DNA from: a virus
IMG/VR virus record: IMGVR_UViG_3300042112_000233
Span: 1-43,101 of that record
Length of the DNA: 43,101 nt
Direction: 5' to 3' (one strand)
Positions 5,977-42,761 of this stretch are shown here, one piece after another. The position numbers were made by a program, and so were the translations under genes. The notes beneath the pieces were generated by a model, which saw only the letters and a list, made by a program, of their open reading frames with translations, did not search any database and was not told the origin of the DNA. How positions within the stretch are numbered: the stretch's first letter is position 1; the number at the start of each line of letters is the position of its first letter.

Positions 5977-5981
5977 GTTGC

Positions 5982-8100: not shown

Positions 8101-8120
8101 GAGTTATTGCTTGTGAAGTT

Positions 8121-8147: not shown

Positions 8148-8176
8148 GTACTCAGATTTATGAATAAAACCCACGC

Positions 8177-8191
8177 CCTAACAATGTTAGG
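8177..8191. repeat. CTAACAWTGTTAG palindrome, copy 8
   Basis: Perfect CCTAACAATGTTAGG, centre A, extended to a 19-bp dyad (8175-8193). It lies 14 bp upstream of the small membrane-protein gene at 8206. Confidence 0.94.
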
Positions 8192-8205
8192 GCTACGTTA
8201 CTCAC

Positions 8206-8322: not shown

Positions 8323-8324
8323 TG

Positions 8325-9398: not shown

Positions 9399-9409
9399 GC
9401 TATACGGAC

Positions 9410-9438
9410 TTGACTTGTCCATAACTTTGTAGTATAAT
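9410..9438 (+). promoter_or_regulatory. Strong sigma70-like promoter for the AAA/VWA operon
   Basis: TTGACT (9410-9415), 17-bp spacer, perfect TATAAT (9433-9438). It is the best -10 box found in the window. The spacer shares TAACTTTGT with the promoter at 6544. Palindrome copy 10 lies about 30 bp downstream of the predicted start. Confidence 0.82.
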
Positions 9439-9474
9439 ATGTACTGTAGTAGAAGAGTGTTTGTTAGTAGCGGG

Positions 9475-9489
9475 CCTAACAATGTTAGG
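9475..9489. repeat. CTAACAWTGTTAG palindrome, copy 10
   Basis: Perfect CCTAACAATGTTAGG, centre A, in the leader between the 9410 promoter and the AAA ATPase gene. Confidence 0.94.
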
Positions 9490-9517
9490 TCTAATCCAAC
9501 CATCAGAGGATCAGAAA

Positions 9518-10588: not shown

Positions 10589-10593
10589 TTAAA

Positions 10594-10608
10594 CCTAACA
10601 TTGTTAGA
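10594..10608. repeat. CTAACAWTGTTAG palindrome, copy 12, overlapping a Shine-Dalgarno
   Basis: CCTAACATTGTTAGA, centre T. The final A replaces G and creates AGAGGA (10606-10611), the ribosome binding site of the 10616 gene. Confidence 0.93.
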
Positions 10609-10615
10609 GGACAAT

Positions 10616-11806: not shown

Positions 11807-11819
11807 TACGGGGGTAAGC

Positions 11820-12071
11820 ATGGTTGTTATAAGTCTTGGCTACAACTCAACACTTGCTGTGACTAAGGAAGATGCAATGATCTTAGCTGGCATTTTTGAG
11901 CGAGCCTATAAGTGGGAAGAGAAGTGGGTTTCCAAAGCAGATTCGGAAACAGGGGAGTCGCATTATTTGTACTATGCGTATCCCCAAGATGATATGCCGA
12001 CCATGAAGATTGTGCATGATCGCATATATGAGATGGCAAAGTTGGCTGGCAAGCCTATCAGTAAATCTTAA
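11820..12071 (+). CDS. Small hypothetical protein
   Basis: This 83-residue protein starts at an ATG 5 nt after GGGGG (11810-11814). It begins MVVISLGYNSTLAVTKEDAM and contains an aromatic, charged middle (YKWEEKWVSKADSETGESHY). No known domain is recognised. It sits between the VWA-like gene and the 12097 gene in the same transcription unit, so it may belong to that module. Its stop codon is directly followed by palindrome copy 14. Confidence 0.7.
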   Translation: MVVISLGYNSTLAVTKEDAMILAGIFERAYKWEEKWVSKADSETGESHYLYYAYPQDDMPTMKIVHDRIYEMAKLAGKPISKS

Positions 12072-12086
12072 CCTAACATTGTTAGA
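12072..12086. repeat. CTAACAWTGTTAG palindrome, copy 14, overlapping a Shine-Dalgarno
   Basis: CCTAACATTGTTAGA, centre T. As in copy 12, the changed last base makes AGAGGA (12084-12089), the ribosome binding site of the 12097 gene. Confidence 0.93.
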
Positions 12087-12096
12087 GGAAAATCAA

Positions 12097-12951
12097 ATGA
12101 GTATTAGCGCATCAGCAGTATTGGTCGAACTGAATATCAGTGTGTGGCCTGCTACGATCAAAGACAGCAAAGTCAGCGATCAAATCACGAGTGCTGCATC
12201 AGCGATTGCCGACGCAGGACAATTTCGCAAGAACTTGTTTGCGGGTACGTCCTTACGCAAGGACATTGAGAACTACGCAGCTCGCGCTCGCTTGTACAAC
12301 AACCAACGCACAATGCCTTGGGCCGACAAAGGCGAGCGGTTGTTGCCGACTAAGTTGTTCATGGATTACAAGATCAGCATGAACACGTTTCAGCATACCT
12401 TCGATAGTATGTGCAACACGTTCTTTCAGAACTACGCAGTGCTTATTCAGCAAGCACAAACTAACTTAGTAGGACTGTTCAACCCTGACGACTATCCCCC
12501 TCTTGATGAGGTGAAGGAGAAGTTTGCGTTCAATCTAACGATCAAGCCTGTGCCTGAGTCGGGAGACTTTCGCTTGGACATTCCTGCTACGGACTTAGAG
12601 GAGATCAAGCAATCGTTTGAGAACCAACAAGCTGAGAAGATGGCAGAGGCTATGCGTACGCCGTGGGAGCGGTTGCATACAGTGCTCACTGCAATGTCAA
12701 CTAAGTTGGCTAAGGGTAGGGACGAAAAAGCAAACATGCGTTGGCATGACTCATTCATTACCAACCCGTTGGAGCTGTGCCAATTGCTTACTGCTATGAA
12801 CATAACCAATGATCCCAAATTGGAGGAAGCAAGACAGCAACTGGAGCTAACAATGTTAGGCACAAATCTCAACTCGCTGAAAGAAGACGTACATGCGCGT
12901 GAAGATTTGAAATCAAAAGTCGATGGCATCCTTGGCAAATTTTCTTGGTAA
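12097..12951 (+). CDS. Hypothetical protein of the MoxR-VWA module
   Basis: This 284-residue, mainly helical protein starts with ATG 7 nt after AGAGGA. The N-terminus (LVELNISVWPATIKDSK) and the arrangement beside MoxR and VWA genes recall DUF3150-type proteins found with such pairs in mobile elements, but this is a weak resemblance. The rest shows helical segments rich in Gln, Glu and Leu. Palindrome copy 15 is internal and here is read in a different frame, giving Leu-Thr-Met-Leu-Gly. A structural or substrate-adaptor role in the module is inference. Confidence 0.72.
   Translation: MSISASAVLVELNISVWPATIKDSKVSDQITSAASAIADAGQFRKNLFAGTSLRKDIENYAARARLYNNQRTMPWADKGERLLPTKLFMDYKISMNTFQHTFDSMCNTFFQNYAVLIQQAQTNLVGLFNPDDYPPLDEVKEKFAFNLTIKPVPESGDFRLDIPATDLEEIKQSFENQQAEKMAEAMRTPWERLHTVLTAMSTKLAKGRDEKANMRWHDSFITNPLELCQLLTAMNITNDPKLEEARQQLELTMLGTNLNSLKEDVHAREDLKSKVDGILGKFSW
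12846..12860. repeat. CTAACAWTGTTAG palindrome, copy 15, intragenic, shifted frame
   Basis: GCTAACAATGTTAGG, centre A, first flank base G. Read as CTA ACA ATG TTA GGC, it uses a different codon phase from the other intragenic copies. Confidence 0.92.
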
Positions 12952-12960
12952 GAGGTAAGT

Positions 12961-13839
12961 ATGGAACAGCACGAAATCCTTTCTAATCGGTCGCTTGCTA
13001 ACCAAGCGATGTTGCAATCCAACGTACGGCTTGTAAGTGTTGACGTAGTAGATAAGCAAACCCTTGAGTTTGAATTTGCTGGAATGCTTGCCGATGTTGC
13101 ATGGCCTTTGGTTACGAAGTTTCCTCATATCGAGTGGGTAGTACGGGCGCGAAAGCTAAACAATTCTCATAGGTACAGAGTTACAGACCTTGAAGCATTC
13201 AAGGAGGGTAAAGAAGTTGGTAAGGTCAGCACAGTTTACTCTCGCGCATACGGTTCGGCGTTTGCGTTGTACAGCGAAACCATAAGTGAAGAGCGGGAGC
13301 GTGGCAGCTTTCTACGTACACAGAAGCATGACGTTGTGCTGGCTACGGTTAAGAAGAAGTTTAACCCTCGCTCTGTACAGAAAATGTGTCAGGAGGCAAT
13401 TAAAGCTGTTATTAGCATACTAGGTACTTACACTTGGACAGCGGAGCGTCAGAGGAGAGATGCAAAAACTTCTATGGTTGACGATCTATTTACACGCATG
13501 GAGGCAAACCCACAGATTGCCGACCATATTGCTCCGTTTATTAGAGCGGCGGACATGCTCAAGTATGAACAAGCATGTTTTGAGATGCGTAGCATTGAGG
13601 ACTTGCGTGAGATGGTTCAAACCTCAAACAAGCGCACTGCCTTGGTGTTACTTGACAGGGGAGGTTATATTGTACGTGCTGAAGAACAAGTCGCAATCTA
13701 TAACGACGAGACACTGCCGATGGGGGTGCGTAAATCTTTAGGTTTACTTAAGCTGATACAGAACGACGAGCAGTTTGTTCCTGATGTTGGCGTACGAGTA
13801 AACGACCATACCTTTTTAGTTCTAGTGGATGAAGCCTAA
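12961..13839 (+). CDS. Hypothetical protein (292 aa)
   Basis: This protein starts with ATG after AGAGG (12952-12956), 9 bp past the previous stop. The first 150 residues look mixed alpha/beta, with HIEWVVRARKLNNSHRYRV and a Tyr/Ser-rich segment. The middle is helical (AKTSMVDDLFTRMEANPQ) and the C-terminus returns to beta-like character. No catalytic motif is recognised. Its stop TAA (13837-13839) lies within palindrome copy 16. It is the last larger gene of the palindrome-bearing block. Confidence 0.75.
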   Translation: MEQHEILSNRSLANQAMLQSNVRLVSVDVVDKQTLEFEFAGMLADVAWPLVTKFPHIEWVVRARKLNNSHRYRVTDLEAFKEGKEVGKVSTVYSRAYGSAFALYSETISEERERGSFLRTQKHDVVLATVKKKFNPRSVQKMCQEAIKAVISILGTYTWTAERQRRDAKTSMVDDLFTRMEANPQIADHIAPFIRAADMLKYEQACFEMRSIEDLREMVQTSNKRTALVLLDRGGYIVRAEEQVAIYNDETLPMGVRKSLGLLKLIQNDEQFVPDVGVRVNDHTFLVLVDEA

Positions 13840-13849
13840 CATTGTTAGG
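13835..13849. repeat. CTAACAWTGTTAG palindrome, copy 16, containing a stop codon
   Basis: Perfect CCTAACATTGTTAGG, centre T, extended to 17 bp (13834-13850). The TAA that ends the 12961 gene is part of the left arm. Confidence 0.94.
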
Positions 13850-13873
13850 CTACTTGACAACACGGAGATAATG

Positions 13874-14056
13874 ATGAGCGTTAAGACTACTTCAGAATCC
13901 ACAAACGTGTTGGCTACCTTTGTTCGGCAGTGGGAGAAGATAGGACAACTCCCACCTTGGAAAGACCCCAAGGTTTTAGCCGAGCGGCAAAGGGTAGCCG
14001 ACTTAGATCAACAACGAATTGTTGAAAGGCTTGCGACTGAGTATGGACGAGTCTAA
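13874..14056 (+). CDS. Small hypothetical protein
   Basis: This 60-residue protein starts at ATG 13874, 6 nt after GGAG (13864-13867); ATG 13871 and ATG 13829 are alternatives, the last reading through the palindrome. It is helical and charged (FVRQWEKIGQLPPWKDPKVL, then AERQRVADLDQQRIVERL). It overlaps the next gene by 14 bp. Function unknown. Confidence 0.62.
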   Translation: MSVKTTSESTNVLATFVRQWEKIGQLPPWKDPKVLAERQRVADLDQQRIVERLATEYGRV

Positions 14057-14237
14057 GCCTAAACGAAAGGGTCGGGGGAAAGGTAAGAAGCCATCCATGT
14101 TGGGCACGAGTATACGTCTACCTGAGTATGTGCACACTTGGTTCAAATCAAACCATCCCTATGACATGCAGTCTGCAATTAGAGCAGTTTTAATTAAACA
14201 TATTGAGGATAGTAATCATGGCCAAAGCCACATCTAG
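14043..14237 (+). CDS. Putative ribbon-helix-helix DNA-binding protein
   Basis: This 64-residue protein has a very basic N-terminus (KPKRKGRGKGKK) followed by GTSIRLPEYVHTWFKSNHPY and a helix ending in a basic tail. The strand-helix-helix order fits Arc/CopG-type regulators, which bind short DNA palindromes as dimers. It overlaps both neighbours. Its size and place at the end of the palindrome-bearing block make it a candidate reader of the palindromes, but this is inference. A nucleoid-like DNA-coating role would also fit. Confidence 0.6.
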   Translation: MDESKPKRKGRGKGKKPSMLGTSIRLPEYVHTWFKSNHPYDMQSAIRAVLIKHIEDSNHGQSHI

Positions 14238-28662: not shown

Positions 28663-31600
28663 TTACTCCCGACCCTCCGTCGGGATTTTTTTCGCCTCAC
28701 GCTCACGCTCGGCAACTGCTTTACGCGACACTGTGGCAGCAGGGGCAAGCAACGCTGCATTCTTTTCTGACAACCGCAGACCACGCCAAGACTCACCACG
28801 GTCTTTAGCTCTGCGCTCCAACGAGTCTTGAAGCTGGTCAGCCTCAATTTTGAACGAGGGATACTTTTTGTTGAACTCAACAAGGTCTTTGGTAATTAGT
28901 TGGTTGTAAGCCTTAAAGTTTTGTTTGCGGTATTCACGGTCGATGTTGTCAAACAACTTCTGACGTTCGTTCTCAATACGTTGCTGAATACCAATAAGTT
29001 TGAAGGTTACGTTTTGCGTGTTGGCAAGAAGGTCTGAACGGAACCCAATAGCTTGACCGACAAGCTCACCCGTCGTAAACGCATCCTTACTCAAAATCTG
29101 AGCGCCTTTGTTATCTTTAGCGCCTTCAGTGGCGTACTTATGAGTAAGTATAAAGTTACGTATTAACGCAGGAGACATTTTCTCCACGCCCTTTTGGTAA
29201 TCTCCGTTTCGGAAAGCCTCATATGAGTCGGCAAGATTGAGCACCATGTTTACACCGGGGCCAGCTTTCTCAATAGCGTAGGCTTGCAATTCCTCTCTAG
29301 GTGTTTTGGTTTCCTTAATATCACGGAACCACAAGTCATTGAGCTGCGTACGAGAAGACAAATCCCACCCAGTGAGCGCGTTCATAGGCCCACGCTCGAC
29401 AATCTCGCTCAAGCTTTTACCGTTAATTTTGTAATCCCCAAGCACTTCGGGTAGGAATATCGTGCGGAACCAAAGCTCAAAGCTTAAATCTTTAACATCT
29501 TTTGGTTTTTCGTCATCGTCGGCGTTACCCCAAGCCCACCCTAGCAAGCCCATTACTGCACTAAACATAGGCAGTCCAGCAGCACCAGCAAGCATCCAAG
29601 TGCTTGCCATCGTACCCCAGAATATTTTTGCAGCCTCGGCCTTACCTTCTTTGTTAAGGAAAGGAATCATGCGTTTAAAGTTCTTCATTAAGTACAAAGT
29701 CACATGCAGTGGGTACATCTGAAACTGCAACATGATTTTGCCGCCTGCATTACGCATAATCATCGGGCGGTTGTATTCACCGTAATTGCCGAGCGCATCG
29801 TTAGTGTCTTGAACGGCTTGGTCTATAGCGTCTTCTTCAGGTATGTTTGGGTTTTTTCTTTTAGACAACCGATACGAAGCTAAGAACAAAATTTCACGGG
29901 AAAGTCTTTCAGTTGAGTGCAACAGCCCACCAACTACCATATTTGCGTAATACTTTCCGCGCTGCGCTACAGAACCAAATTCTTCCGTAGGTACGTTTTT
30001 GTAATCAAACAGTGCACGCGCATAAGTGTTTTGAGTTACGTCCCTAGCCAGCATACTTTCTACAGCAGCACGTTCGTCTGCTGTAAGGCCAGAAGCATTC
30101 ATTATTGAGGGTGGTGACCAAACGGAGCTGCCTGTTGCAGTCTTACGCATAACGCCGTATTGATCCCATATCTTCATCAACTTGGTCATTTCTGCGGCTG
30201 TGGCTCCGTACCCATGACGAGCACCAAGTATGGGTATGCCTGTTTGAACGATGCCAAGTGGCTGCAACAACGCAGAAGATGCACCAGAAAGATAATAGAT
30301 AAACGAAGCTTTGTTAACAAAGCTGGCTATTTTGTCGAGCACACCGGGAATATTTGGGTTGAGTGTTTGCGCTACCCGTGTTTCCATCTGAGATACAAAG
30401 GGCTCAAGCTCCGGTCTATTTTGTATAGAGTCACGCGCAGCCGACAACGTATTACGCAACTTAGGTGCGTACTTAAGCCGAGCAAGTTGCAACGACATTC
30501 TTAACGATGTTTCGTTAAAGTCGCGGAGCAAATCGGTGCGAAAGCCTGCGTATCCTTTACGCGCAATGAACTGCTTTCTAAAGGACTGTTCTGGCATTGT
30601 GCGTAGATACAATTGATACACAGCATCTTTCATATCTTCACGAGCGGTAATGTCTGTGAAGTCGGCGTTATCAATTAAGTCAAAAGTAGCTTTCAATATT
30701 GCGCTAGGATGTTGACCGTTTATCGCCCTTGTAGATGATTCCCGTAACTTACGTAAGTCGTTGCCGATTTCAAACCGTTTGGTTTCAAGTAAGTTATCTA
30801 GATCATCTTTACGATCAGCAGCCATTTGAGCAGCAACAGCATCACGCTCAGCCATTGTTGGGAACATAAAGAATTGCTTTGTGTTTCCTACATACACAGA
30901 AAGCCAAAAATCTCCATCCCGCATCAAAGGGAAGTAAGGGTCAAGCCGACCTTCACCTTCGTACATTTTTCTAATTGAAGCTAACAACTTCTTTTTTGCT
31001 TCAGGCGGTATGTTAGCGTCGTTAATTTGGTCATCAAGCAGTGAGCTGTAAAGCTCAGCCATATCATCATAGTATTGCTTTACGTCGTTATATATGCGCT
31101 TACCTTCTGGCCCAAGGCTTTCAAACATTTTGTTTATACGCTCACTGCGAATTTCAGCAGTGGGATCAACCTGTGCAAGGGTTGTTACTTTTGTAATTTC
31201 ATCTAGCTTAGCGCGAAGCGTAGGGTCTTGGCTAAACGCATTATTAATACTACGCGAGAGATCAGCAGCCGCACCCATAAGTTTTTGTGCCATGCCGCTT
31301 AGTTGTTGCAGTTGTTTGTTAACTTCTAGCAAACGAGGTATATCCTTCCCAGCCCATTCAGCTAGGAAATCGTTTGTTACTGGCTTAACTAAACCTTGGC
31401 GAATGCGGTAGTTTGTACCGCGCCATATCGCTGCAAGTGCGGGGAAAATATTTTTCCCATTACGCAGTTTGTATATAAGTGAAGCTTGCTTTGCTAAACC
31501 CTCAGCGCGTTTAGAAGTTTCGTATTTCTCAACGGCTTCATCTACTGCATTGTCGATTTCTTTTTGGGTTCTTGCTGCTCTTCTCTCCGCAGCTTCGCCA

Positions 31601-34600
31601 GAAACTCCGGCAGGGAGGCCGACCGATTCAACACCTTGAGGGCTTTGTTTAGCGCCTCCGGGTACTCCTTGCTTCCCTTCTCCTTTTCCGCCAGCGACTT
31701 CCACTGGCTCAGTAATGCGACCATCTCCGACTTGTTCGTTGCTAGCGTCCGAGAAGCGCTTTCCAACAGACTCAAGATCTCCACTTCTAAACTCCTTGTT
31801 CAAGAACTGATAAATGTCCATGTTCTTAGCTAAGAACTTGGCAAAGCTGTTCTTTACGTCTGCCAGATCAAACCCAGGCATCGTCTCTAAATACATAATG
31901 TCGCGTTGCATTTCCTTAGCAAAATCTGAACCATGATTACGTACTTTAAAATGCGCTAATTCATGGATCATCGTGCCAATCATGGATACAGCAATTTGGG
32001 CAGGCGTTCCCTTATCTTCTAAATCCGTAGACGCAGGGTTTAAGAAAGACCCACTAAACGGAACACGTATACTTACCCCAAGATACTCTTTATCAAAACT
32101 TACTCCAATTGCTTCTTTTTCTAAGTTAGCGTAACTTGGGTCAGATATTACCAACACTTCACGCAACTGCATGAATATATCGCCTACTTCTTTTAAGTAA
32201 GCATCAAACCGAGCGCCAAATTTTTCTCGTGCTACCGCCGTAAACGGTACTGTACCGCCAATGATGACTCCGGTGTCATCTTTCTCGTAATTAATAACAT
32301 CTGTTCGAGATATGGATGATGCGTTTAATTCATCCGCACTTAGTTTTTTAGCAAGGTTGTCGTGAACCATGACCCGTGTTGAGTCAATTTTGTCTTGTGG
32401 AATTTTAAGTTCATCAATATCTATTTTAACTTTAGACAAATCGTCTACGGACAACTCTGGGACTTGCCTGTTATTAATAGACATTACCCCATCTTTGACT
32501 TCTACTTTGTCCGTAGGTTTAATGAGTGTAAGCCCAGTTGGGGCTGGTGGTATTTCAGGCTTAAGCTCTTCAGGAGAACTTAATTTACCATCAGGTTCTA
32601 TATACTGCACCACCCCAAAACTTTGTACCTCTTTACCATACTCAGCTTGAGCAAACGTAAGAGTTATGTAGTTGAAAATATTATCAAAATCTTTTTGAGC
32701 AACAGGGGAAAATCTTTGCCTATTTAAATCAAATGGATAGCCAGGGTCTTCTGGTTTTACATTTTCGTTAGGTGATACGTCAATGTAAAAATTTCTTTTA
32801 ATCTTTTTTCCGTCATACCCAGGTTTGTCTTTAATTGCAGTACCAAATTGATATATGCCATTTGACAATATATAAGTATTTTCAAAAGGTGCGTAAGGTA
32901 ATTCGTCTTTTGATATATAAATACGTGCTTCGCCCCAATTAAATTTAACTTTAGAAAAGACAGTATATTCATCTATTGGGAAAGCATTGCCTAACGGAAG
33001 TGTACTGTAGCCCCAGCCTTGGTCTAACAGCACATTAATATTTTCAAACAACGGACTATGCTCAAGAGAATTACTACGTGCTAAGTTCCATGTATTAAAT
33101 GATATATCTTTGGTTTCCCCAGTTGATTCATCAAGGTAAGTTTCAGGGATTACAACACGTATTAACGTACCATGCCCTTCAGGAAATGTTGAATTTATAT
33201 ACTGTTTAACAACTTTAGGGTCGGAAGTAATTTCAATTTTAGGAGATTTACTGGGGTCATCAAACGATTCTTTAAGCTCGTCTCCACTCGTAACCATACG
33301 AGCTATGTCGCCATTGTTTAAAGACAATACTTCTAATTCTTTGTTTTCAAACAAGAACAACATTTTTGCAACGCCAAGTCCACCGGACGCACGTTTTGTC
33401 TTTTTTACAGTCCCAGCAATTTGTAAAAATTGATTGCCCATAACACTAGCTGGCATACCAGGGCCGTCATCAATAACAGTAATAGACCTATTTGCTCCAT
33501 CTATTTTTATTTTTACGTTACCTGTCGTTTGAATCCCTTCTTCAAAACCACCCTTAATTGCGTCAAAAGAATTTTGAAACAATTCTTTGATTGACACTTC
33601 AGCTATTTTGTCTGGGGTACCATAAAGCTTAGCGCCCAACATTTTTGCCATGCGCTTTACATTTGCAGAAGGCGTAGCTGTTATTGTTTTTGAAGCTGGC
33701 TTCTTTGCAGCCAACGATGGTTTCTGTTGTTGTGCACGTTCTTTAGCTGTCTTAAGCTGCCTACCGCGCAGGCCAATAACTTCTTGTGCAGGCCGAACCT
33801 GCATGGATGCAATCCTGTCGGTGATGTCGAACAAATCAGCAAGCGCGTTGAATTGATTAGGTGCAAGCCCAAGAATCTTACGAACAGCTTCAACAAACTT
33901 AGTAAACAGTGTCTTGTCTCGACCTGTTGAGCTATACCTAGCTGGCGTTTTAACTGATTTAAGAAACTTAACAAAGTATGGGTTAGATGTGCCGTAGGCT
34001 GCAAACTCACGGGGGCTATCAAATACGTTAAGTGTTTCGCCAAGCTCAAGCACTTCGGGATCAATAGTGCCGTCTTTTACCGCTTCGTCGTATGCTTGCT
34101 GAGCAAGCATCATCGTTTCTTGCAGCTCTGCGTACCCTTGTACTAGCGGGTCTTTGCTTACCCCAGCAATAACGCCTTGGGTTTCTGCCATGTTCTCGGC
34201 AGTAATTAACTTCTTATCGAGCGCAGCATGGGCACTCTCATGCAGCATGTCTACATTGTTAATACTTTGCTGATCACCAAACGAAGCACCACGTAAATAT
34301 ATAGTCGGCTGACCGTACGCTGGGCCGACGTACATGGCATTAGCAACATCCCAGCTATCTTTTAGTGCTGGGTTATCTGCAATTTGTTTTGGTAGTGGCG
34401 TGTTCTGTTCAAGCACAACAACAGGCACGTTCGTAGCTACAGACTTAAATCTGTTAGCCAGTGCTTTTTGTAAGTCGTCACCTGTTTGTGCAACAACCGT
34501 TAACCCTTGAACAGCGTTGTTGACTTTATTTAGGCGCTCATTAACAGGCGCACCACTTAATGCAGTCGAAGGGCTTGCACTTTCAAATGGACGTTGATAC

Positions 34601-37227
34601 GGGAAAAATAAATATTGCTGACCTGTTGAGCTTTTAAACGTAATACCGTCATACCCCTTATCAGATGCAGTTTGCATCAAGGTAGACATTTTTGCCGATT
34701 CGGGCAGACCAAGCTTTACCTTAGCTTGGTTCATAGTCGGCGCAATCAATAGACTTTCAAAGTCAACTTGTTCTAATTCTGGGGGTTTATTTTCTTTACC
34801 ATACGCTGCTGCTGTTTCTTCATTGTCTACATACGTAATGAAACCATTACCTGTTAAAACAGGAAAAAGATCAAATGTTGCTGCGCCTCGTTTTTGCCGA
34901 GTAACTTGCCGTTCAATATCTTTTACTAATTCGTCAAGGTCTTCATCAGCGTAGTTGGCTATTGTTTCTTTGTTTACTTCTGGGTCGATCTCATTGGCAA
35001 AACCCGTAAGTTTGTCTGACTCTAGTTTCCTAGCTTCTTCTGTGAGTTCTGAAAGTCGTTTGATAGCCTTGGCTCTAGGAGTTTCTGCGGCAGGTTCTGC
35101 CACTTCTGCTCCTTCAACAGGCGTTGCTGCTCGCGTTTCTTCTGCTTCGACGGTTTCTGTGGGCGCAGTGACACTGGGGGCTTCCTCTTTAGGCGTTGGC
35201 TTTTCAACTAAAACTGAACGGACAAGATTGGCGTCTTTTGCAGAAACTACACCTTCTGCTTCTAACTGCTCAAGAATACGTTGTGCGCGGTTGTACCCAA
35301 CTCTTAACCCACGTTGAATTAACGAAACGCTTGCTCGTTGGCTTTCAATTACTAGATTTTTTGCTTGGTCGTACAGCGTATCGCGTGTAGTTTTTAATTC
35401 AGCAGGTGGAGGCTCTTCTCGTGGTACAGTTGGTTTAGCAGCAGGCTCAGCGCCTGCCACTCCAGTGTCGATAGATGGTGCAACTCCTCCGGGGGGCTCT
35501 GCTCCAGGGGGTCCGCCAGAAATTGAAACGCCCTCTCCACCTCCTGCAACGGTAGGTTCAATAACATCTTCTGCACCTGCTGCATCTGCGGCCTCCTCAT
35601 CAGCGACCCGTTTTTTGGCTAACGCAATAGCTTCAGCTTTAGTGCTAACGATATTATTGTCAAGTAGCTCCCCAGCGTAAGCCTGCACTCTTGGGTCATC
35701 ATCAGGTATAACCAACCCTTCGCGTAGCTTTGCTTTTCTTTCTTCTTCAGCTTCGGTTTCACGCCTTTGAGCTTCTACGGCTAATGCGTTTACCCGCATG
35801 GTGGCAATTTTTCTGGCGTCTTCTTCAGCCATCCCACGAGTCTGAACAAGCTGCTGAGTTAAAGCATTTATTTGTTGTTCTTTAGTTAGCTCTGCATCAA
35901 GCGTGCGTTCTTTGCGCTCTGGTGGAGCAACGTCAGTTTTTATTTCTGGTTCTACACGAGGAACAGCCCCAGGCTCCACAGTCGGCACACGTTGTGCCTC
36001 AAGTTGTTTTGCTTCACGTAAGGCACCTCTAGCTTCTAGGGGTGCAGTAAATGTTTCCGCTATACCTTCTAGCAAAATATCAGCAGGTTTAAATTCTTCC
36101 CCAGCAACTTTTTGCGCTAATGCTTCACCACCCGCGCCACCACCCGCTTGAAGTGCTAATTCTTTTGCCCAAGCCGATACGGTTGCTTTTCTTGCTGCAT
36201 TACCTGCGAGCTTTCCTTCTGCAATAAGTTGTCGAGCTGGTTGAGCAAATCGCCCAGCAAGTCCAGCAGTTAACCCATCAACAGCACCAACAACCAAACC
36301 GCGTTTTGCGGCTCGGTCTTTCATTTCTGCAATTATTTTTGGATCAGAAAGTGCTTTACCTACTTGCTCTGCGTTTAACAGATCAACACCTTTGTCCTGA
36401 AGTACGTCAGCCATAACACTGCCATACTCCAACCCGCCCGAACCAAGACCAGTTGCAATTCCTCTAGTAACCGCAGACGCCCCAAGAAAAGGAGCCATCG
36501 CCGCCATGCTTGGCGCAGACACAAGTAAAGAATCCACAAGCATCGTAAAAGTAGCCCGTGGATTAAGAGCTAAGTTTGTTGCTGCCTCTCCAAATGTTTT
36601 GGAGTCGGCAATCTTCATCATGCCTTCTTGTATATCAGCTTCAGGGGCAGCGGCGGCACGCTGCTTTGCGTTTCTAGCTAATAAGCGCCCAGCATCATCA
36701 GGATCAATAGCGCCTGTCTGGAACAAATAACTTGTAGCTACATCACTAAGACTAGCCCCTGCGCGTTTGAACGCATCCGTTGTGGCTTTGACTGCGCCTT
36801 TTTCAGGGGATGGTTTGATTTCGCCAGATGGAGTAGTAGACACCGCAGTGCCAGGGGGTATAGCTTCGGTTTTAAAATAATCACTACCACGAGCTTGCCC
36901 GTGTTTAATAATTTCGGGCCATTTAATTCCAGCCTGTTCAAACCGCTGCCGAACCAACTCAGCAGGCGCACCTTCTTCAATTAGGTTTACTGCGTCATCA
37001 AGAGCTTCTGTTTTTGACTTATACGGCTGCGGTTGTGCTGCTGGTGCGGACGTAGTCGGCGTAGTGGGTTTTGCAGCTACTTCATCCACCATCCATTCGT
37101 TGTTAACCAAATAGGCTTTTGCCCCGGTTTTTGGATTAGTGGCTGTCTGGGTTATGGGCACCCATTGGTTACCAACCAGCGCAACGCTTTCCCCAGTTTG
37201 GGGGTTAGTAGCTGTTTGAAGTGCCAT
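28663..37227 (-). CDS. Giant polyvalent (PLxRFG-type) putative ejection protein
   Basis: This 2854-residue protein is the last gene of the late block. The N-terminus carries two tandem copies of a 23-residue repeat (QTATNPxTG...). An FtsK gamma-like winged helix (SLIQRGLRVGYNRAQRILEQ) lies near 629-665, an ART/PolyVal-like region near 790-885, and HESAH at 996-1000. A GHKL-type ATPase region has KELFQNSFDA near 1213-1222, DDGPGM at 1253-1258 and GGLGVAK near 1278-1284. A second zinc motif, HELAH with a later His (1755-1765), is SprT-like. PLMRDGDFW near 2100 resembles PLxRFG, and a hydrophobic stretch lies near 2530-2563. Large polyvalent proteins of this type are thought to be injected with phage DNA and to counter host defences. 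The domain calls are by eye; injection is inferred. Confidence 0.85.
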   Translation of the reverse strand: MALQTATNPQTGESVALVGNQWVPITQTATNPKTGAKAYLVNNEWMVDEVAAKPTTPTTSAPAAQPQPYKSKTEALDDAVNLIEEGAPAELVRQRFEQAGIKWPEIIKHGQARGSDYFKTEAIPPGTAVSTTPSGEIKPSPEKGAVKATTDAFKRAGASLSDVATSYLFQTGAIDPDDAGRLLARNAKQRAAAAPEADIQEGMMKIADSKTFGEAATNLALNPRATFTMLVDSLLVSAPSMAAMAPFLGASAVTRGIATGLGSGGLEYGSVMADVLQDKGVDLLNAEQVGKALSDPKIIAEMKDRAAKRGLVVGAVDGLTAGLAGRFAQPARQLIAEGKLAGNAARKATVSAWAKELALQAGGGAGGEALAQKVAGEEFKPADILLEGIAETFTAPLEARGALREAKQLEAQRVPTVEPGAVPRVEPEIKTDVAPPERKERTLDAELTKEQQINALTQQLVQTRGMAEEDARKIATMRVNALAVEAQRRETEAEEERKAKLREGLVIPDDDPRVQAYAGELLDNNIVSTKAEAIALAKKRVADEEAADAAGAEDVIEPTVAGGGEGVSISGGPPGAEPPGGVAPSIDTGVAGAEPAAKPTVPREEPPPAELKTTRDTLYDQAKNLVIESQRASVSLIQRGLRVGYNRAQRILEQLEAEGVVSAKDANLVRSVLVEKPTPKEEAPSVTAPTETVEAEETRAATPVEGAEVAEPAAETPRAKAIKRLSELTEEARKLESDKLTGFANEIDPEVNKETIANYADEDLDELVKDIERQVTRQKRGAATFDLFPVLTGNGFITYVDNEETAAAYGKENKPPELEQVDFESLLIAPTMNQAKVKLGLPESAKMSTLMQTASDKGYDGITFKSSTGQQYLFFPYQRPFESASPSTALSGAPVNERLNKVNNAVQGLTVVAQTGDDLQKALANRFKSVATNVPVVVLEQNTPLPKQIADNPALKDSWDVANAMYVGPAYGQPTIYLRGASFGDQQSINNVDMLHESAHAALDKKLITAENMAETQGVIAGVSKDPLVQGYAELQETMMLAQQAYDEAVKDGTIDPEVLELGETLNVFDSPREFAAYGTSNPYFVKFLKSVKTPARYSSTGRDKTLFTKFVEAVRKILGLAPNQFNALADLFDITDRIASMQVRPAQEVIGLRGRQLKTAKERAQQQKPSLAAKKPASKTITATPSANVKRMAKMLGAKLYGTPDKIAEVSIKELFQNSFDAIKGGFEEGIQTTGNVKIKIDGANRSITVIDDGPGMPASVMGNQFLQIAGTVKKTKRASGGLGVAKMLFLFENKELEVLSLNNGDIARMVTSGDELKESFDDPSKSPKIEITSDPKVVKQYINSTFPEGHGTLIRVVIPETYLDESTGETKDISFNTWNLARSNSLEHSPLFENINVLLDQGWGYSTLPLGNAFPIDEYTVFSKVKFNWGEARIYISKDELPYAPFENTYILSNGIYQFGTAIKDKPGYDGKKIKRNFYIDVSPNENVKPEDPGYPFDLNRQRFSPVAQKDFDNIFNYITLTFAQAEYGKEVQSFGVVQYIEPDGKLSSPEELKPEIPPAPTGLTLIKPTDKVEVKDGVMSINNRQVPELSVDDLSKVKIDIDELKIPQDKIDSTRVMVHDNLAKKLSADELNASSISRTDVINYEKDDTGVIIGGTVPFTAVAREKFGARFDAYLKEVGDIFMQLREVLVISDPSYANLEKEAIGVSFDKEYLGVSIRVPFSGSFLNPASTDLEDKGTPAQIAVSMIGTMIHELAHFKVRNHGSDFAKEMQRDIMYLETMPGFDLADVKNSFAKFLAKNMDIYQFLNKEFRSGDLESVGKRFSDASNEQVGDGRITEPVEVAGGKGEGKQGVPGGAKQSPQGVESVGLPAGVSGEAAERRAARTQKEIDNAVDEAVEKYETSKRAEGLAKQASLIYKLRNGKNIFPALAAIWRGTNYRIRQGLVKPVTNDFLAEWAGKDIPRLLEVNKQLQQLSGMAQKLMGAAADLSRSINNAFSQDPTLRAKLDEITKVTTLAQVDPTAEIRSERINKMFESLGPEGKRIYNDVKQYYDDMAELYSSLLDDQINDANIPPEAKKKLLASIRKMYEGEGRLDPYFPLMRDGDFWLSVYVGNTKQFFMFPTMAERDAVAAQMAADRKDDLDNLLETKRFEIGNDLRKLRESSTRAINGQHPSAILKATFDLIDNADFTDITAREDMKDAVYQLYLRTMPEQSFRKQFIARKGYAGFRTDLLRDFNETSLRMSLQLARLKYAPKLRNTLSAARDSIQNRPELEPFVSQMETRVAQTLNPNIPGVLDKIASFVNKASFIYYLSGASSALLQPLGIVQTGIPILGARHGYGATAAEMTKLMKIWDQYGVMRKTATGSSVWSPPSIMNASGLTADERAAVESMLARDVTQNTYARALFDYKNVPTEEFGSVAQRGKYYANMVVGGLLHSTERLSREILFLASYRLSKRKNPNIPEEDAIDQAVQDTNDALGNYGEYNRPMIMRNAGGKIMLQFQMYPLHVTLYLMKNFKRMIPFLNKEGKAEAAKIFWGTMASTWMLAGAAGLPMFSAVMGLLGWAWGNADDDEKPKDVKDLSFELWFRTIFLPEVLGDYKINGKSLSEIVERGPMNALTGWDLSSRTQLNDLWFRDIKETKTPREELQAYAIEKAGPGVNMVLNLADSYEAFRNGDYQKGVEKMSPALIRNFILTHKYATEGAKDNKGAQILSKDAFTTGELVGQAIGFRSDLLANTQNVTFKLIGIQQRIENERQKLFDNIDREYRKQNFKAYNQLITKDLVEFNKKYPSFKIEADQLQDSLERRAKDRGESWRGLRLSEKNAALLAPAATVSRKAVAEREREAKKIPTEGRE
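28667..28692 (+). terminator. Intrinsic terminator of the rightward block
   Basis: TCCCGAC (28667-28673) and GTCGGGA (28679-28685) form a 7-bp stem with a 5-nt loop, then seven T. It lies 62 bp past the last rightward gene and inside the 3' end of the convergent giant gene. Confidence 0.92.
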
Positions 37228-37232: not shown

Positions 37233-38849
37233 TTAACGTGAGTTAGGAACAAACCCAGGGGGTGGGGGTGGGGTATTTGACCTTTGTGGATAGGGTATAG
37301 CACCGGGGGGCATACCGCCACTAGCTGGGAACCGTGCACGTACTGCGTCTTCTAGTTCCTTCTTTTCCGTAGCACTAGCTTCAATATATGTAGGGTCGTA
37401 TCTTAGTCTATTCATCGCCTCGCTTAATGTTTTGGAGTTAAACACTTCAGCTCGCAGCATACTTGCTGCTGCACTTGTACGCCTAGACCCAAGTAATGCG
37501 TTTTCTGCTAGCCCAAACGCTTTGTCTCTTAGTTGTGCATCGGATTTTCTTTGGTCTAGAGGAAGCCTAGCGTTTTCTTCTTTCAGTACCTCATAGGCAA
37601 CGTTAGCACGAGTTTGTAAATCAGTTTTACCTCCACGTTCAGCTTTTGCAATTTCGGCCCGTACCTTTGCTAATAGAATCTCATTTCTAGCATCTGCTAT
37701 TTGTTCTCTAGACCTTCTATCAGCCGCTGCTATTTGCTGTCTTGCTTCGGCTTGTGTTTTGGCTACTTCTTCTTTGAGTTGTAGATCACCAATCTTCTGT
37801 TCTGCACCCAGAGCAGTAGAGATAACACCTTTGCGGAGTTCAAACGCTTTGGCCAAATCAGATTCCGCACTGGCGACAAGTTCATTAGCACGTTTAGTAC
37901 GGCCACGTTCTTCTTCAAAATCAGCAAGAGCTTCTTTACGTTTGGCTTCTGCCATATACATAGCTGCTTTACTAGCACGATCTCCGTAGGCTGCTTGTTG
38001 GGCATTTACACCTTTAGCCATACCAAGGATTACATCCGAAACTCTACGCCCACGTTCAGTGGGTATACCGGCAACAATCCCAGAAAGTAAATCAGGTTCC
38101 TTACCTAATATGGCTTTAACTGTTTGCTCGTCTAGTCCAGCAATACCTTGTTTAAACTTTTCATACTGCCCACGATCTTTTGCTTCGGCTTCTTCTAAGC
38201 GCCGTTTCTTTTCTTCGGGGGAAAGACGCGCTGATTTTTCAGCCTCTTCAAGCTCGGCTACACCACTTCTAATTCTGCCAATTGTTGAACGTATGGGGTC
38301 TTCTTCAACTTCAGGTAAAGGTTCTTCTTTTTCTAACCCAGCAAGTGCTAGTAGCCCCGGCCTACTTGGAGTGTATTGCCCTACCATACCTCTACTTGCA
38401 TACCCTTCAACATCGCCACCACCAGCAAATACGATCCCGCCATCCATAGCGGTAAACATATCAGGGCGCATAGGTAAAGCAGCTACACCCATCTCTCGTG
38501 CTTGAAGTTCTTGAGCTTTTTTAGCCATAAGCGCACCAGCTAAACCTAGCTGTTGTTCTTTTTGTTGTAATGCTTGCATGGCCTGCTGAATCTGCATGTC
38601 CTTCTGTTGAAAGATAGTTGAGTCGCTTACCTTATTGTTCATAGCTTGTTGGCGCTGACTAGCCGCACCACTAGACCCACGTTCTGCCAAAGCTAATGCA
38701 GGCGCACCCCCCGGTCCTGGAGTGGCTTGTCCTGTCGGTTGAGGAGGAGTACCTGCTGCATAATTTTGCAGCACACCCCCAGGCATCTTTGACATTGCTG
38801 CCTGAACTTGGGGGCCGTCGGGTGGGAATGGAATCGGCATATCAGTCAC
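37233..38849 (-). CDS. Putative internal virion protein with coiled coil
   Basis: This 538-residue protein has a Gly/Pro/Ala-rich start (MTDMPIPFPPDGPQVQAAMS), a long Gln-rich helical stretch (residues 65-120) and the motif MDGGIVFAGGGDVEGYASRG near 133-152, common in phage internal or scaffold-like proteins. The middle is a long charged coiled coil. It lies 5 bp before the giant gene in the late block, so it is probably also a head-internal or ejected protein. The precise role is not recognised. Confidence 0.72.
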   Translation of the reverse strand: MTDMPIPFPPDGPQVQAAMSKMPGGVLQNYAAGTPPQPTGQATPGPGGAPALALAERGSSGAASQRQQAMNNKVSDSTIFQQKDMQIQQAMQALQQKEQQLGLAGALMAKKAQELQAREMGVAALPMRPDMFTAMDGGIVFAGGGDVEGYASRGMVGQYTPSRPGLLALAGLEKEEPLPEVEEDPIRSTIGRIRSGVAELEEAEKSARLSPEEKKRRLEEAEAKDRGQYEKFKQGIAGLDEQTVKAILGKEPDLLSGIVAGIPTERGRRVSDVILGMAKGVNAQQAAYGDRASKAAMYMAEAKRKEALADFEEERGRTKRANELVASAESDLAKAFELRKGVISTALGAEQKIGDLQLKEEVAKTQAEARQQIAAADRRSREQIADARNEILLAKVRAEIAKAERGGKTDLQTRANVAYEVLKEENARLPLDQRKSDAQLRDKAFGLAENALLGSRRTSAAASMLRAEVFNSKTLSEAMNRLRYDPTYIEASATEKKELEDAVRARFPASGGMPPGAIPYPQRSNTPPPPPGFVPNSR

Positions 38850-38852
38850 CTA

Positions 38853-40634
38853 TTAGCCAGGAGGAAGCCCAAGAGCTTTTCTAAGGTCTGCCATATAAGT
38901 TGGATTATTAATGATGCTGTTTACTAAAGAAACACCGCCAGCACCGCCAGCAATTGCTTCAGCTAACGAGCTAGTTCCAGTATCTCCAGCTTTAATTGGC
39001 AAACCTGTCAAAAGTTGACTAGCATACCCAAGCTCACGAAATGGGTCTAAGTAAGTATCACGCGCTTGCGTGTACTCAAATTGACGAGTGGCTTCAGCAG
39101 CACGATTGGCTTCCGCAAGTTGTTGCAGTGCAAGATTAGCTGCAAACTGATCGCCTCTAGCTGTAGCTTCTTCAGCACGTTGTTGTAAGTCTCGTGCAAG
39201 TTGTTGGTACTGAGCTTCATTCGCAGCACCTGTTAATCCTTGCCTACCAGCTTCCTGTCTTGCTCTTTCAGTCTCAACACCTGCGGTTAACTTGCGACCC
39301 TCTTCGGCTTCAAACGCACGAAGCGCAGCGTCATAAGCTTCTTTCTGACCTTTACCGTAAATGTCACCGATCTGCGTTGCAAGGTTTCTACCTAACTCGT
39401 TTTCAGCAAGAATACTTCTAGACCCACCAAAAGCACCGGCTTGTGAAAATTTTGCAGCCTGAGATTGTCTTGCAAGTTCAGCTTGGCGTTTAGCTTCACG
39501 GACTTGTGGATCAGTAACTGCGGTTGCATATGGGTTAGTAAAACGACTAATTGCGGCTGGGTCAAATGAACCTGTAGTAATACCTGAGTCACCGGGACCA
39601 GAGTAAATATTAGTTGGAGCGTTATAAGTAGAAGGTACAACTTGAGCACCTTGCGTTCCACCGGCAATGGTATCTGAACCTACACCCCCGCTAGTAGTAA
39701 CCGCAGCGTTGCCTACCGCACCTCCATCGTCATAGTGATCCACTAAAGACATTACCCCACCACTTTTTGCAGGTTTAGGGGCGAACGAATATTTATAGGG
39801 TTGGAACACAGCAGATTTATCTTCGCCTATGCCCATCATGGCTTCACGTCGGGCTTGAAGATCTTTTAAGGTTTGTGCTGTTTCAGTGCCATACCCTCCA
39901 GCACCTGTACCGCCAAACTGTGGGCCTGTGTACGTGGGTTCTCCGGTTACTGGGTCCACATTACGTCGTGCTAAAAGCCCAGACGCTCGTTGAAGCATAT
40001 CCTGAACGTAGTCGGTGTACCCCTCACGAAGCCCAGATTCACCTTCAACTTTTACGCCAGTATCCCCAGTAACAGATTTAAAAGGTTGTGGTTGCTGTTG
40101 CTGTGTATTAGATTTGACTAAATCAAGAACTGCTTTATTACCAACACCCGTAGTTGCTATTCGATCTGCGGCGCTTTTTAATTGAGAAAGCGGTATATCA
40201 GCAAGATTGTAGCTACCTTGGTTAGCGTCATATACTTCTTTTACAGCGTCATACCCACCTAATTTAGCAAAAGCATAAGGGTCTATTGTTCCAGTAGTCA
40301 TAGACTGCTGCATTAGCTTTGTTGCTACGTCAGGAGCTACCGTATATTTAGCTCTGATTGCCTCGTCAGATAACCCTGCGTTTATATCAGCAGCAATTTT
40401 AAATTTAGGTATATGGTCAAACTCAGCCGCGAGTGTATCAACTCGGTCCCCTACACTTTCTAATCCTTGCGTTTTAAACCACGGCGCTTCATCTGCTGTA
40501 ATGGCTCCAGCACTTATTAGATCTTCTATAGTTACACCGTGGCTCTTAAACCAAGCAATTTTTTCATCTGCTTCGTCGTAAGGTCCGCCCTTTACGCCCC
40601 AGTTAGCAGGTAAATCTTTTTCACTTATAGCCAT
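38853..40634 (-). CDS. Putative internal virion/ejection protein
   Basis: This 593-residue protein starts MAISEKDLPANWGVKGGPYD and has an N-terminal helical region, a Gly/Ser/Thr-rich middle and a strongly helical C-terminal half (about 400-510) with many Ala, Gln and Arg. The final DTYLDPFRELGYASQLLTGLP is a signature of phage structural proteins in ejection-protein positions. It is packed 2-4 bp from its neighbours. The role is inferred from position and composition. Confidence 0.7.
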   Translation of the reverse strand: MAISEKDLPANWGVKGGPYDEADEKIAWFKSHGVTIEDLISAGAITADEAPWFKTQGLESVGDRVDTLAAEFDHIPKFKIAADINAGLSDEAIRAKYTVAPDVATKLMQQSMTTGTIDPYAFAKLGGYDAVKEVYDANQGSYNLADIPLSQLKSAADRIATTGVGNKAVLDLVKSNTQQQQPQPFKSVTGDTGVKVEGESGLREGYTDYVQDMLQRASGLLARRNVDPVTGEPTYTGPQFGGTGAGGYGTETAQTLKDLQARREAMMGIGEDKSAVFQPYKYSFAPKPAKSGGVMSLVDHYDDGGAVGNAAVTTSGGVGSDTIAGGTQGAQVVPSTYNAPTNIYSGPGDSGITTGSFDPAAISRFTNPYATAVTDPQVREAKRQAELARQSQAAKFSQAGAFGGSRSILAENELGRNLATQIGDIYGKGQKEAYDAALRAFEAEEGRKLTAGVETERARQEAGRQGLTGAANEAQYQQLARDLQQRAEEATARGDQFAANLALQQLAEANRAAEATRQFEYTQARDTYLDPFRELGYASQLLTGLPIKAGDTGTSSLAEAIAGGAGGVSLVNSIINNPTYMADLRKALGLPPG

Positions 40635-40636
40635 GA

Positions 40637-42121
40637 TTACCTCGGCATGAATTTGTCAGGGTTAATCTGTTTACCCTGTTTGGGGTTGCCCGTTCGTGCA
40701 GCACGAATATCATCCATCATTTTGTAAAGGCGTTTCGCACCAGCGTTAGAGTTACCATTACCAAGATGACTAACAACATCAGCAGGAATAACAAACTCGC
40801 CATCACTAAGCGCAGCAGGTCGCCTACCGTCAATGTTCGCTGGTACTTTGTCTGCCATACCATCTGAGTGTCCGTCGAGGTATCGTGGTGGTAGTGTACG
40901 TCCTCCCCGCGCCATTTCCAATGACCCAATTCCACCTCCTATTGCAGCTTTTTTAAACCCAGTAACACCACCTGCACCTGTAACTGTCTGATACCCAGAG
41001 CTGCTTTTGAATGGTTTACCTTTGGCTGCTTCACGCGCAGCTTCGGCATCTTTATAACTAGCGTAGCCAGTAAGTAAGCCAGCACCACCTTTTAAAAGCG
41101 TCTTTAAAGTGTCTTCGCTAAGCCCAGTAGCATCAGCTAGTTGTTTTAAAATTGAAGCACCGGCAGCAGTAGTTGCAACGGTTGCGGGGGAACCTAGACT
41201 CCCACCCCCAGGAATTTGTGTTCCTTGTCCACCTGTGACGTTGTATTCATCTATAACATCTGGAGTTGTTCCACTTGTTCCACCTGCTAAAGCAGCCCCA
41301 CCTAAAACCCCAGCCGTAGCAAGTTCAGGTATGATTGAAGTAGCAGCAGGTAGGGAAGAAGCCGCAACCGTTAAAGAAGCAGGCGTACTTAAAGCAGCCG
41401 GAACACCAGCACCCGCACCAGCCGCAGCAAGTTCAGGGGCAGTCAAAGCAGCCGGAACACCAGCACTACCTCCAAGCGTTGTAGCCCCTGCTGCTTCAAG
41501 TGCCTCAGTCGCAGCCATAATATCTGCTGCGGTAGTACCCGCAAGAATACCTTCTCCAGCAGTGGCAGCAAGAACACCCTCACCAGCAGCGGCAGCACCA
41601 GTTCCTGCGCCAGTTGCACCAAGAGCTTCCATCACAATTGGGCCACCAAAATAAATGGCGGCAGCGGCAGCGGCAGCTTTAGCTGCATCGTTTACAAATC
41701 TATCAAGGCTAGTCAAGCTTCCTTTGAAATACTGCCCTTGCCCCATAGGAACAAGATTGCCTCTATCGTCTTCAATATAAGTATTAACGTACCGTTCACG
41801 GTTAGACCCACCTGTTTTCCCAGCAATCGTAAACATACGTTTGCCATCAGGTGTTTTTGTTTCTGTTACATAAGTGTCGGTATGAAGCTTGCCTTTGTCC
41901 CCAATAAACATATCGTAAAGAGGATTGCTTTTACCTTCTTTTTGCAATTTGTCTATTAAATAATCGTAAGCGCCCCTTGCTGTTTCTTCCTGCCCTACGA
42001 CGTTGCTTAGCTCTTCACCTGTACCGTATATATCGATTGTTTTTTTGCCGTAGTCAGACACTCCAGCAAAAGGATTAAGTAAGTTTATTCCGGGGCCAAG
42101 GTTTCTAGATGTGGTTGCCAT
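40637..42121 (-). CDS. Putative virion protein with Ala-rich hydrophobic region
   Basis: This 494-residue protein starts at ATG 42121, after AGGGA, 1 bp past the previous stop; an upstream TTG is less likely. Residues about 148-285 form an Ala/Gly-rich hydrophobic region with repeated GVPAAL and AGEG units, which could insert in a membrane. The C-terminal region YLDGHSDGMADKVPANIDGR and LSDGEFVIPADVVSHLGNGN is a well-known signature of phage structural proteins. A role in DNA ejection is plausible (inference). Confidence 0.75.
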   Translation of the reverse strand: MATTSRNLGPGINLLNPFAGVSDYGKKTIDIYGTGEELSNVVGQEETARGAYDYLIDKLQKEGKSNPLYDMFIGDKGKLHTDTYVTETKTPDGKRMFTIAGKTGGSNRERYVNTYIEDDRGNLVPMGQGQYFKGSLTSLDRFVNDAAKAAAAAAAIYFGGPIVMEALGATGAGTGAAAAGEGVLAATAGEGILAGTTAADIMAATEALEAAGATTLGGSAGVPAALTAPELAAAGAGAGVPAALSTPASLTVAASSLPAATSIIPELATAGVLGGAALAGGTSGTTPDVIDEYNVTGGQGTQIPGGGSLGSPATVATTAAGASILKQLADATGLSEDTLKTLLKGGAGLLTGYASYKDAEAAREAAKGKPFKSSSGYQTVTGAGGVTGFKKAAIGGGIGSLEMARGGRTLPPRYLDGHSDGMADKVPANIDGRRPAALSDGEFVIPADVVSHLGNGNSNAGAKRLYKMMDDIRAARTGNPKQGKQINPDKFMPR

Positions 42122-42122
42122 G

Positions 42123-42761
42123 TTATTCAATCCCTGAGACAAGGGTGGCAGTCAGGATGACTGATGGTATCGCAGGTCGCGTCGGTGAGGAAGGGGCAGT
42201 ATAGTATTCGATGTAAGTGTTGGTGTTGGAACTGCGCCAGTAAAGCTGAATGTAGTCGTTAGGCGTTACGCTTACAATAAAGTTTAAGGCGGCAATCACA
42301 TGGTATGGATCGCCAGCAGACTTACGTGGGGCTAAACCAAACCGGCTGTTGGAGTCGGCAATATCCTGACCATTCTTACGAAACCAAATATCTACGTCTT
42401 GAGTGGCGTTGTCGTTGTTAGAAAGCTGAACGCTGAACTGAATATTGTACAGACCGGGGTAATCAAAGTGGATCTCGGAGCTATTTAGAATTTTAACGCC
42501 GTTAGAAATGCTTGTTGTGTTGTACGTAATAACGTAAGCCGTTGTAGTTGAAGCAGCCGTTTGATCCGTCGTATCGTAAAAAGACCCCAGCGGAAGCTGC
42601 ACATACTGCCCGCCATAAGTGCCGAAAAGAGAAAGTAAGTTGTTATTGAGCCTGTTGAAGTACAGACGCAAAACGTTATTAAATTGCTCCTGATAACGCG
42701 AGTCGTACTGCCCCGGTGCCAGCGGTAAGTTAGGCGCAGCAGGATGTTGGATAAAACTCAT
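42123..42761 (-). CDS. Tail-associated protein with C1q-like jelly-roll C-terminus
   Basis: This 212-residue protein starts at an ATG overlapping the previous stop as ATGA. The N-terminal 50 residues (PLAPGQYDSRYQEQFNNVLR) are helical, and the rest is beta-rich. LYNIQFSVQLSNNDNATQDV and IWFRKNGQDIADSNSRFG fit the C1q/TNF-like jelly roll of phage tail proteins. It probably trimerises and could be a fibre tip or decoration. The host receptor is unknown. Confidence 0.75.
   Translation of the reverse strand: MSFIQHPAAPNLPLAPGQYDSRYQEQFNNVLRLYFNRLNNNLLSLFGTYGGQYVQLPLGSFYDTTDQTAASTTTAYVITYNTTSISNGVKILNSSEIHFDYPGLYNIQFSVQLSNNDNATQDVDIWFRKNGQDIADSNSRFGLAPRKSAGDPYHVIAALNFIVSVTPNDYIQLYWRSSNTNTYIEYYTAPSSPTRPAIPSVILTATLVSGIE

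Follow-up and report, generated by a model that had tools for sequence, protein, structure and literature searches.

A GHKL ATPase and the zincin domain behind it (zincin 2) form one obligate cassette in giant proteins of uncultured phages, which is kept while most of the neighbouring domains are swapped. One such protein is encoded in the window, i.e., the whole stretch of 43,101 nucleotides analysed here (IMG/VR record IMGVR_UViG_3300042112_000233, positions 1 to 43,101), the carrier of which is a virus of bacteria. The reading tentatively favoured, to which we give somewhat less than an even chance, is that of an ejected polyvalent protein with a GHKL domain and a WLM-like protease as its core, which would be switched by ATP and would process cargo and/or host proteins; the same estimate covers, jointly, the podovirus-like nature of the carrier phage. 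The features of the protein and its surroundings are given in Table 1.

Table 1 Features of the giant protein and of the genes upstream of it, with positions in the window
Feature	Residues	Position	Strand	Basis
Polyvalent protein gene, 2854 aa		28663..37227	-	ORF; full-length relatives in many IMG/VR contigs
N-terminal twin short motifs ATNPQTGESVALVGNQW / ATNPKTGAKAYLVNNEW	1-50	37078..37227	-	Many relatives open with other duplicated short motifs
Variable N-terminal region	51-604	35416..37077	-	Comparison with relatives
FtsK gamma winged helix	615-674	35206..35385	-	Pfam PF09397, E=1.7e-22
Proposed ART region, not confirmed	740-895	34543..35010	-	Pfam, PDB, phage and hhalign comparisons
Zincin 1	900-1185	33673..34530	-	Conserved motif; homology to phiNV3 and LUZ19 internal core proteins
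HESAH (zincin 1)	996-1000	34228-34242	-	Conserved in relatives
PREF E1074, conserved	1074	34006-34008	-	Zincin 1
GHKL ATPase with S5-like transducer	1186-1545	32593..33672	-	Pfam; AF2; Foldseek
GHKL N box KELFQNSFDAIK	1214-1225	33553..33588	-	Invariant residues in 45 diverse members
GHKL G1 box DDGPGM	1253-1258	33454..33471	-	Motif and 45-member alignment
GHKL G2 box SGGLGVAK	1281-1288	33364..33387	-	Motif and 45-member alignment
GHKL G3 GHGT	1351-1354	33166..33177	-	Motif
NRQ, R1503 invariant	1502-1504	32716..32724	-	Aligned with HtpG SRE arginine
Zincin 2, WLM/YgjP-like	1560-1830	31738..32550	-	Profiles, AF2
HELAHFKVRNH, third His at 1765	1755-1765	31933-31965	-	Zinc motif
LPD39	1947-2088	30964..31389	-	Pfam PF18858, E=1.4e-6
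PLxRFG / DarB-like C-terminal 'tail-700' domain	2097-2823	28759..30939	-	NF032893, E=3.3e-113; phrog_10089, E=8e-63
Structural/ejection operon upstream of giant gene (538, 593, 501 and 212 aa)		37233..42761	-	Likeness to DSL-LC04 genes
Tail stabilization protein, C-terminal end at contig edge		42758..43099	-	DSL-LC04 stabilization protein, E=5e-14

The giant gene is a single intact ORF starting with an ATG at 37227. It was found again across many independent IMG/VR contigs, and dN/dS values of 0.06-0.3 were obtained for the GHKL-zincin 2 module in comparisons with two close relatives; this recurrence and these values place the ORF and its domains beyond chance. When IMG/VR was scanned with the module as seed, loci with modules of 32-92 % identity were returned, which after removal of duplicates comprised 69 distinct modules in 45 clusters with less than 80 % mutual identity. 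GHKL and zincin 2 adjoin in 69/69 of these and are never split. Zincin 2 was free to be absent, since the search patterns of the wider scans lay in the GHKL half; it directly follows GHKL in every covering ORF except that of L078, which ends at the contig edge. All 69 modules lie within giant ORFs of uncultured phages, mostly of 2.2-3.4 kaa where complete. Two scans of 84,980 bacterial and archaeal genomes yielded pattern matches but no relative of the module, and tblastn gave no match to the window's module in 50,697 isolate phage records and none to the module of L134 in isolate phages. Among viral structures, the closest match was to A0A516L4L2, which is related to the module over its full length (31 % identity in 666 columns). 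In L140:5500-14219 the chain is split into an ORF of 1895 aa, which ends past the cassette, and an overlapping ORF of 1021 aa, as a consequence of either natural fission or a frameshift. In L134:1-15654, the cassette occupies approximately residues 3000-3700 of an ORF that is 5218 aa or longer, and ART-PolyVal and LPD39 come after it.

The first-pass annotation had proposed a GHKL ATPase with N, G1, and G2 boxes, and this assignment was borne out by motifs, including a G3 motif, and by Pfam, structure prediction and Foldseek. In the full chain, the Pfam GHKL match (residues 1210-1318, E 4e-5) was slightly under the gathering score; using a 656-residue slice, both HATPase_c (2.7e-6) and HATPase_c_3 (9.6e-6) were above the Pfam cut-offs. 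GHKL was matched by Pfam in 24/24, 17/17, and 16/17 of the relatives. Invariant in the alignment of 45 members are K1214, E1215, Q1218, N1219, and D1222 of the N box as well as D1253, G1257, M1258, G1272, T1273, K1275, G1282, G1285, K1288, G1353, and R1503; exceptions to the motif patterns among the 69 modules were mostly conservative substitutions or a truncated copy. AlphaFold2 (AF2) modelling of residues 1185-1840 (pLDDT 84, pTM 0.72) predicted a GHKL fold in the proposed region, and a Bergerat fold and an S5 transducer are present in the predicted structure. Foldseek with this model gave Hsp90 as the top match (1.8e-11), and closed Hsp90, TRAP1, GRP94, MORC2, SMCHD1, and GyrB were all matched with probability 1.00. 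Against viral models, it retrieved many phage RIIA proteins, Hsp90-like proteins of giant viruses, and topoisomerases.

When the family profile was compared with six proteins, an Hsp90-like ATPase of Salmonella Infantis (EHB39743, the best scoring) and HtpG came first, followed by rIIA, MutL, and GyrB, with E=6e-4 for HtpG and E=7 for MutL. A MutL-type or gyrase-type GHKL as nearest kin was rejected on these scores, and of the MutL/Hsp90/Morc-type kinship put forward earlier, the Hsp90 and MORC parts stand and the MutL part falls. From the models, the domain is predicted to be Hsp90/MORC/rIIA-like with an S5 transducer. It shares with Hsp90/HtpG an N-terminal helix with 'LY', the N, G1, G2, and G3 boxes, and an S5-like transducer. 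The SRE arginine of Hsp90 contacts the gamma phosphate of ATP. R1503 (in NRQ, or SRQ in L110) falls on the SRE arginine of HtpG in a global profile alignment, a correspondence that is suggestive only because this alignment is forced. Unlike Hsp90/HtpG, which has a C-terminal dimerisation domain, the giant protein was seen to have none; a zinc protease-like domain follows directly, and the module is embedded in a phage chain of 2.8 kaa. The EHB39743 gene (L163:3956-8103) adjoins that of a 769-aa protein, and weak PADLOC matches to TmtA were noted at this locus; PADLOC gave no match on the giant protein itself.

The module also resembles rIIA in being a phage-encoded GHKL ATPase, and tblastn with the module of L075, a divergent member, reached rIIA of T4-like phages (E=6e-6). 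However, rIIA is a separate gene of approximately 725-750 aa, without PLxRFG and without zincin 2. Identity with rIIA, which has its GHKL at the N-terminus and lies beside a partner gene, was rejected, as the module is always inside a giant ORF. In L038, identity to the window protein is 87 % for GHKL (compared over residues 1185-1560) but 97-99 % for the domains on either side, which suggests local recombination or diversifying change.

Both zinc motifs noticed at first, HESAH at 996 and HELAH at 1755 with its third His, are conserved in relatives, and the HExxHxxxxxH zinc-binding helix of zincin 2 is present in 69/69 modules. Modelling of zincin 2 alone, with 45 sequences, gave a pLDDT of 89.8. 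Pfam matches below E=1 were obtained to YgjP-like in 43/45 members and to WLM in 38/45, the best being 7e-6; the Pfam scores of the window's own zincin 2 stayed under gathering, for WLM under the cut-off of 26 bits. A profile of the 45 members matched, on the zinc helix, the adamalysin-type metzincin atragin (E 0.0055) and yeast Wss1 (E 0.06) in PDB; the same search with a narrower alignment of 24 members gave no match. The helices align as TMiHElaH.....Hd..F in zincin 2 and TMLHELTHNLFGPHDKKF in Wss1. Among the best Foldseek matches were three Wss1 structures, all with E>1, and Wss1 was the best relevant class, with a probability of 0.38 and an E value of 1.3 that is not significant. Zincin 2 therefore shares its zinc helix with the DNA-protein crosslink proteases Wss1 and SPRTN (WLM, SprT) but differs from these in that the domain around the helix is without a significant structural match, and we regard it as WLM-like (Wss1), a candidate rather than a proven member of this family. 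The SprT assignment made initially holds as far as a SprT/WLM-type zinc helix is concerned; the exact family is another one, nearer to WLM (Wss1)/YgjP.

GHKL and zincin 2 are the best-conserved part of the N-terminal half. In L037, a close relative, residues 79-413 are replaced by a different sequence (26 % identity) and the later domains are 90-97 % identical; beyond the close clade, conservation extends to the cassette and the C-terminus but not to the first approximately 900 residues. Domains carried as cargo by other relatives include ddrB-ParB, phage lysozyme, LPD22, LPD38, and ART-PolyVal; in L112:7201-8998 the lysozyme domain lies close to the N-terminal end of the protein. As read from these comparisons, cargo exchange surrounds a constant core in the giant proteins. 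Short motifs occurring at least twice were observed at the N-termini of many family members (ATNP.TG...W, MKFVPLSE, DFSDLVP, NFFDTFD, DLSAELFG, and WEVVSEAP), and the duplicated motifs are possible virion-docking signals. The FtsK gamma-like winged helix recognized in the first-pass annotation is a clear case (79 bits against a cut-off of 30.6). Together with residues 740-895 it was found only in the window protein and its close relatives. These residues had been put forward as an ART/PolyVal-like region, which was not confirmed because they gave no Pfam, PDB, or phage match and hhalign aligned just 16 columns around 'GYDGI' with the true ART-PolyVal of relatives, at a probability of 0.3 %; an ART domain at this position was rejected. 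True ART-PolyVal domains were recognized by Pfam downstream of the module in L134 and L130, and partial matches to ART-PolyVal were obtained in L045, L055, and L061, in the stretch that separates zincin 1 from GHKL.

Of the 45 clusters, 16 show zincin 1 strongly, and it usually precedes GHKL. Across the family it is located upstream of the cassette, downstream of it (as in L060/L105), or is missing. It is homologous to the phiNV3 internal core protein (E=1e-10 and 1e-12) and, weakly, to LUZ19-type internal virion proteins. The phiKMV-like internal core proteins phiNV3 p38 and LUZ19 gp37, the latter annotated as internal virion protein / DNA ejectosome component, carry the same domain with HExxH and a downstream Glu; p38, of 1310 aa, has no further blastp match to the giant protein beyond zincin 1.

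The giant gene is the last one of the structural operon. The C-terminus of the 501-aa upstream protein resembles the DSL-LC04 tape measure protein (E=2e-8), and the 593-aa protein resembles the product of a small gene beside the DSL-LC04 tape measure gene (E=1e-3). The gene order in the window, with the end of the stabilization protein followed by the 212-, 501-, 593-, and 538-aa genes and the giant gene, parallels that in DSL-LC04, the last structural gene of which is named 'DNA transfer protein' and occupies the same slot; its equivalence with the giant gene follows from position, not from sequence similarity. No PHROGs match was obtained for the window's genes immediately upstream of the giant gene. 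Upstream of theirs, relatives carry, among others, genes for a virion structural protein (phrog_3287) and a DNA ejection protein (phrog_4287). The homology of zincin 1 to internal core proteins and the last place in the structural operon make packaging into the virion likely, and the giant protein is probably virion-internal and ejected. A DarB-like protein of 4515 aa was detected in virions of phage JC1 by mass spectrometry, with 51 unique peptides (PMC9144972).

Elsewhere in the window, the near-palindrome CCTAACATTGTTAGG occurs in nine exact copies at 4983-14609, all in the early region (chance expectation 0); these are putative operator-like sites, or sites linked to promoters, at which a phage regulator would act. 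Two copies of GAGAATGATTCT (chance 0.01), at 4895-4906 and 4963-4974, lie between the divergent terminase and early genes; this sequence resembles a Fur-box or operator palindrome. Rfam gave no match.

The protein had been classed as polyvalent, and both the domains of disparate activity in one chain and the 'tail-700' domain agree with this and with the DarB/PLxRFG type. Its PLxRFG-like C-terminus was recovered with the NCBIfam model NF032893 'PLxRFG domain-containing protein' (379.5 bits, cut-off 100), although the literal PLxRFG string is absent from the 2854-aa protein, and residues 2097-2823 match the end of the 4647-position 'DarB-like antirestriction' PHROGs profile. It has in common with polyvalent/DarB-like PLxRFG proteins (PMC5512222), such as gp69 of the Bcep22-like phage JC1 (PMC9144972), a giant multi-domain chain with a DarB-like C-terminus, LPD39, metallopeptidase domains, swapped cargo, and a place at the end of the structural operon. 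Unlike those described, it has a GHKL ATPase in the chain. The main text of the 2017 polyvalent survey, as distinct from its supplementary lists, mentions no GHKL, Hsp90, histidine kinase, or SprT (PMC5512222). In the literature searchable outside supplements and subscription journals, GHKL combined with polyvalent or metallopeptidase returned only a jumbo-phage review on rIIA and topoisomerases. The polyvalent ejected protein is of a known kind, and the obligate GHKL-WLM-like cassette appears to be new; it adds the GHKL class to the polyvalent repertoire.

We infer the ATP switching, the protease activity, and the substrates of the cassette as follows. The C-terminal PLxRFG tail region would probably serve packaging or ejection, and the N-terminal half would be exchangeable cargo, here zincin 1 and the DNA-binding FtsK gamma winged helix. 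Once threaded into the cell, the chain would meet ATP, which in the cytoplasm would act as the trigger through GHKL. As happens in Hsp90 and MORC, the GHKL dimer would be closed by ATP, the gamma phosphate of which Arg1503 would sense, and the movement would expose or align the attached zincin 2 protease. This protease might cut linkers of its own chain first, by which the cargo would be freed, and possibly host proteins after entry. Iyer et al. (2017) have proposed a processing of polyvalent proteins by metallopeptidases, either before delivery or after it (PMC5512222). That the GHKL-zincin 2 pair stays the same while the cargo changes speaks for a function of general use, of which processing would be the simplest. 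The obligate pairing does not prove mechanical coupling, and conservation of the cassette could equally reflect one conserved host target.

A function in anti-defence or DNA stripping, in which a Wss1/SPRTN-like protease and a MORC-like clamp on the incoming DNA would proteolyse bound host proteins such as restriction enzymes and nucleoid proteins, with the FtsK gamma winged helix helping to tether the protein to DNA, is in our view rather unlikely. The Wss1/WLM-like character of zincin 2, MORC2 among the top Foldseek matches, the winged helix, and the PLxRFG/DarB-like tail all fit with it. However, only the close clade has FtsK gamma, and in most carriers the cassette must function in its absence; the cassette itself yielded no DNA-binding element, and the antirestriction function of DarB is not transferable from the C-terminus alone. 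The best structural match, Hsp90, with HtpG among the best sequence matches, would suit a chaperone for the giant chain, or for other ejected proteins, that restores their fold past the tail channel, which is presumably narrow, with the zincin as a maturation protease only. This is unlikely, as the C-terminal dimerisation domain of Hsp90 was not seen and a zincin is fused in every member.

That the protein would be a cytosolic factor like T4 rIIA, made in the infected cell and not delivered with the virion, is an explanation to which the rIIA match of L075 and the many rIIA proteins in the structural search lend themselves. We consider it distinctly unlikely, given the place of the gene in a structural/ejection operon, the PLxRFG tail, the zincin shared with internal core proteins, and the score of rIIA below that of HtpG with the whole profile. 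Proteins with a GHKL-like fold may be pseudoenzymes, and the domain might be a decayed ATPase or structural filler of the internal core with no enzymatic role; conservation of the catalytic Glu/Asn of the N box, of G1, G2, G3, and R1503, and a dN/dS of 0.15-0.3 in GHKL (against two close relatives) make this very improbable.

In the favoured reading of an ATP-switched processing protein, the further claim that the cassette represents a previously undescribed class of metalloprotease, carried in virions, activated by ATP on entry, and acting as the constant processing/attack engine of the ejected polyvalent proteins of widespread uncultured phages, is one that we hold as doubtful. The 656-residue module, with its confident structure prediction, has a size fit for expression and assay. 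Ejected giant proteins act at the very start of infection, before phage gene expression, and function is untested for most of their domains. The constant union of an Hsp90-like ATPase and a zinc protease offers a concrete hypothesis of how such a protein may sense its arrival in the cell, through ATP, and activate itself.
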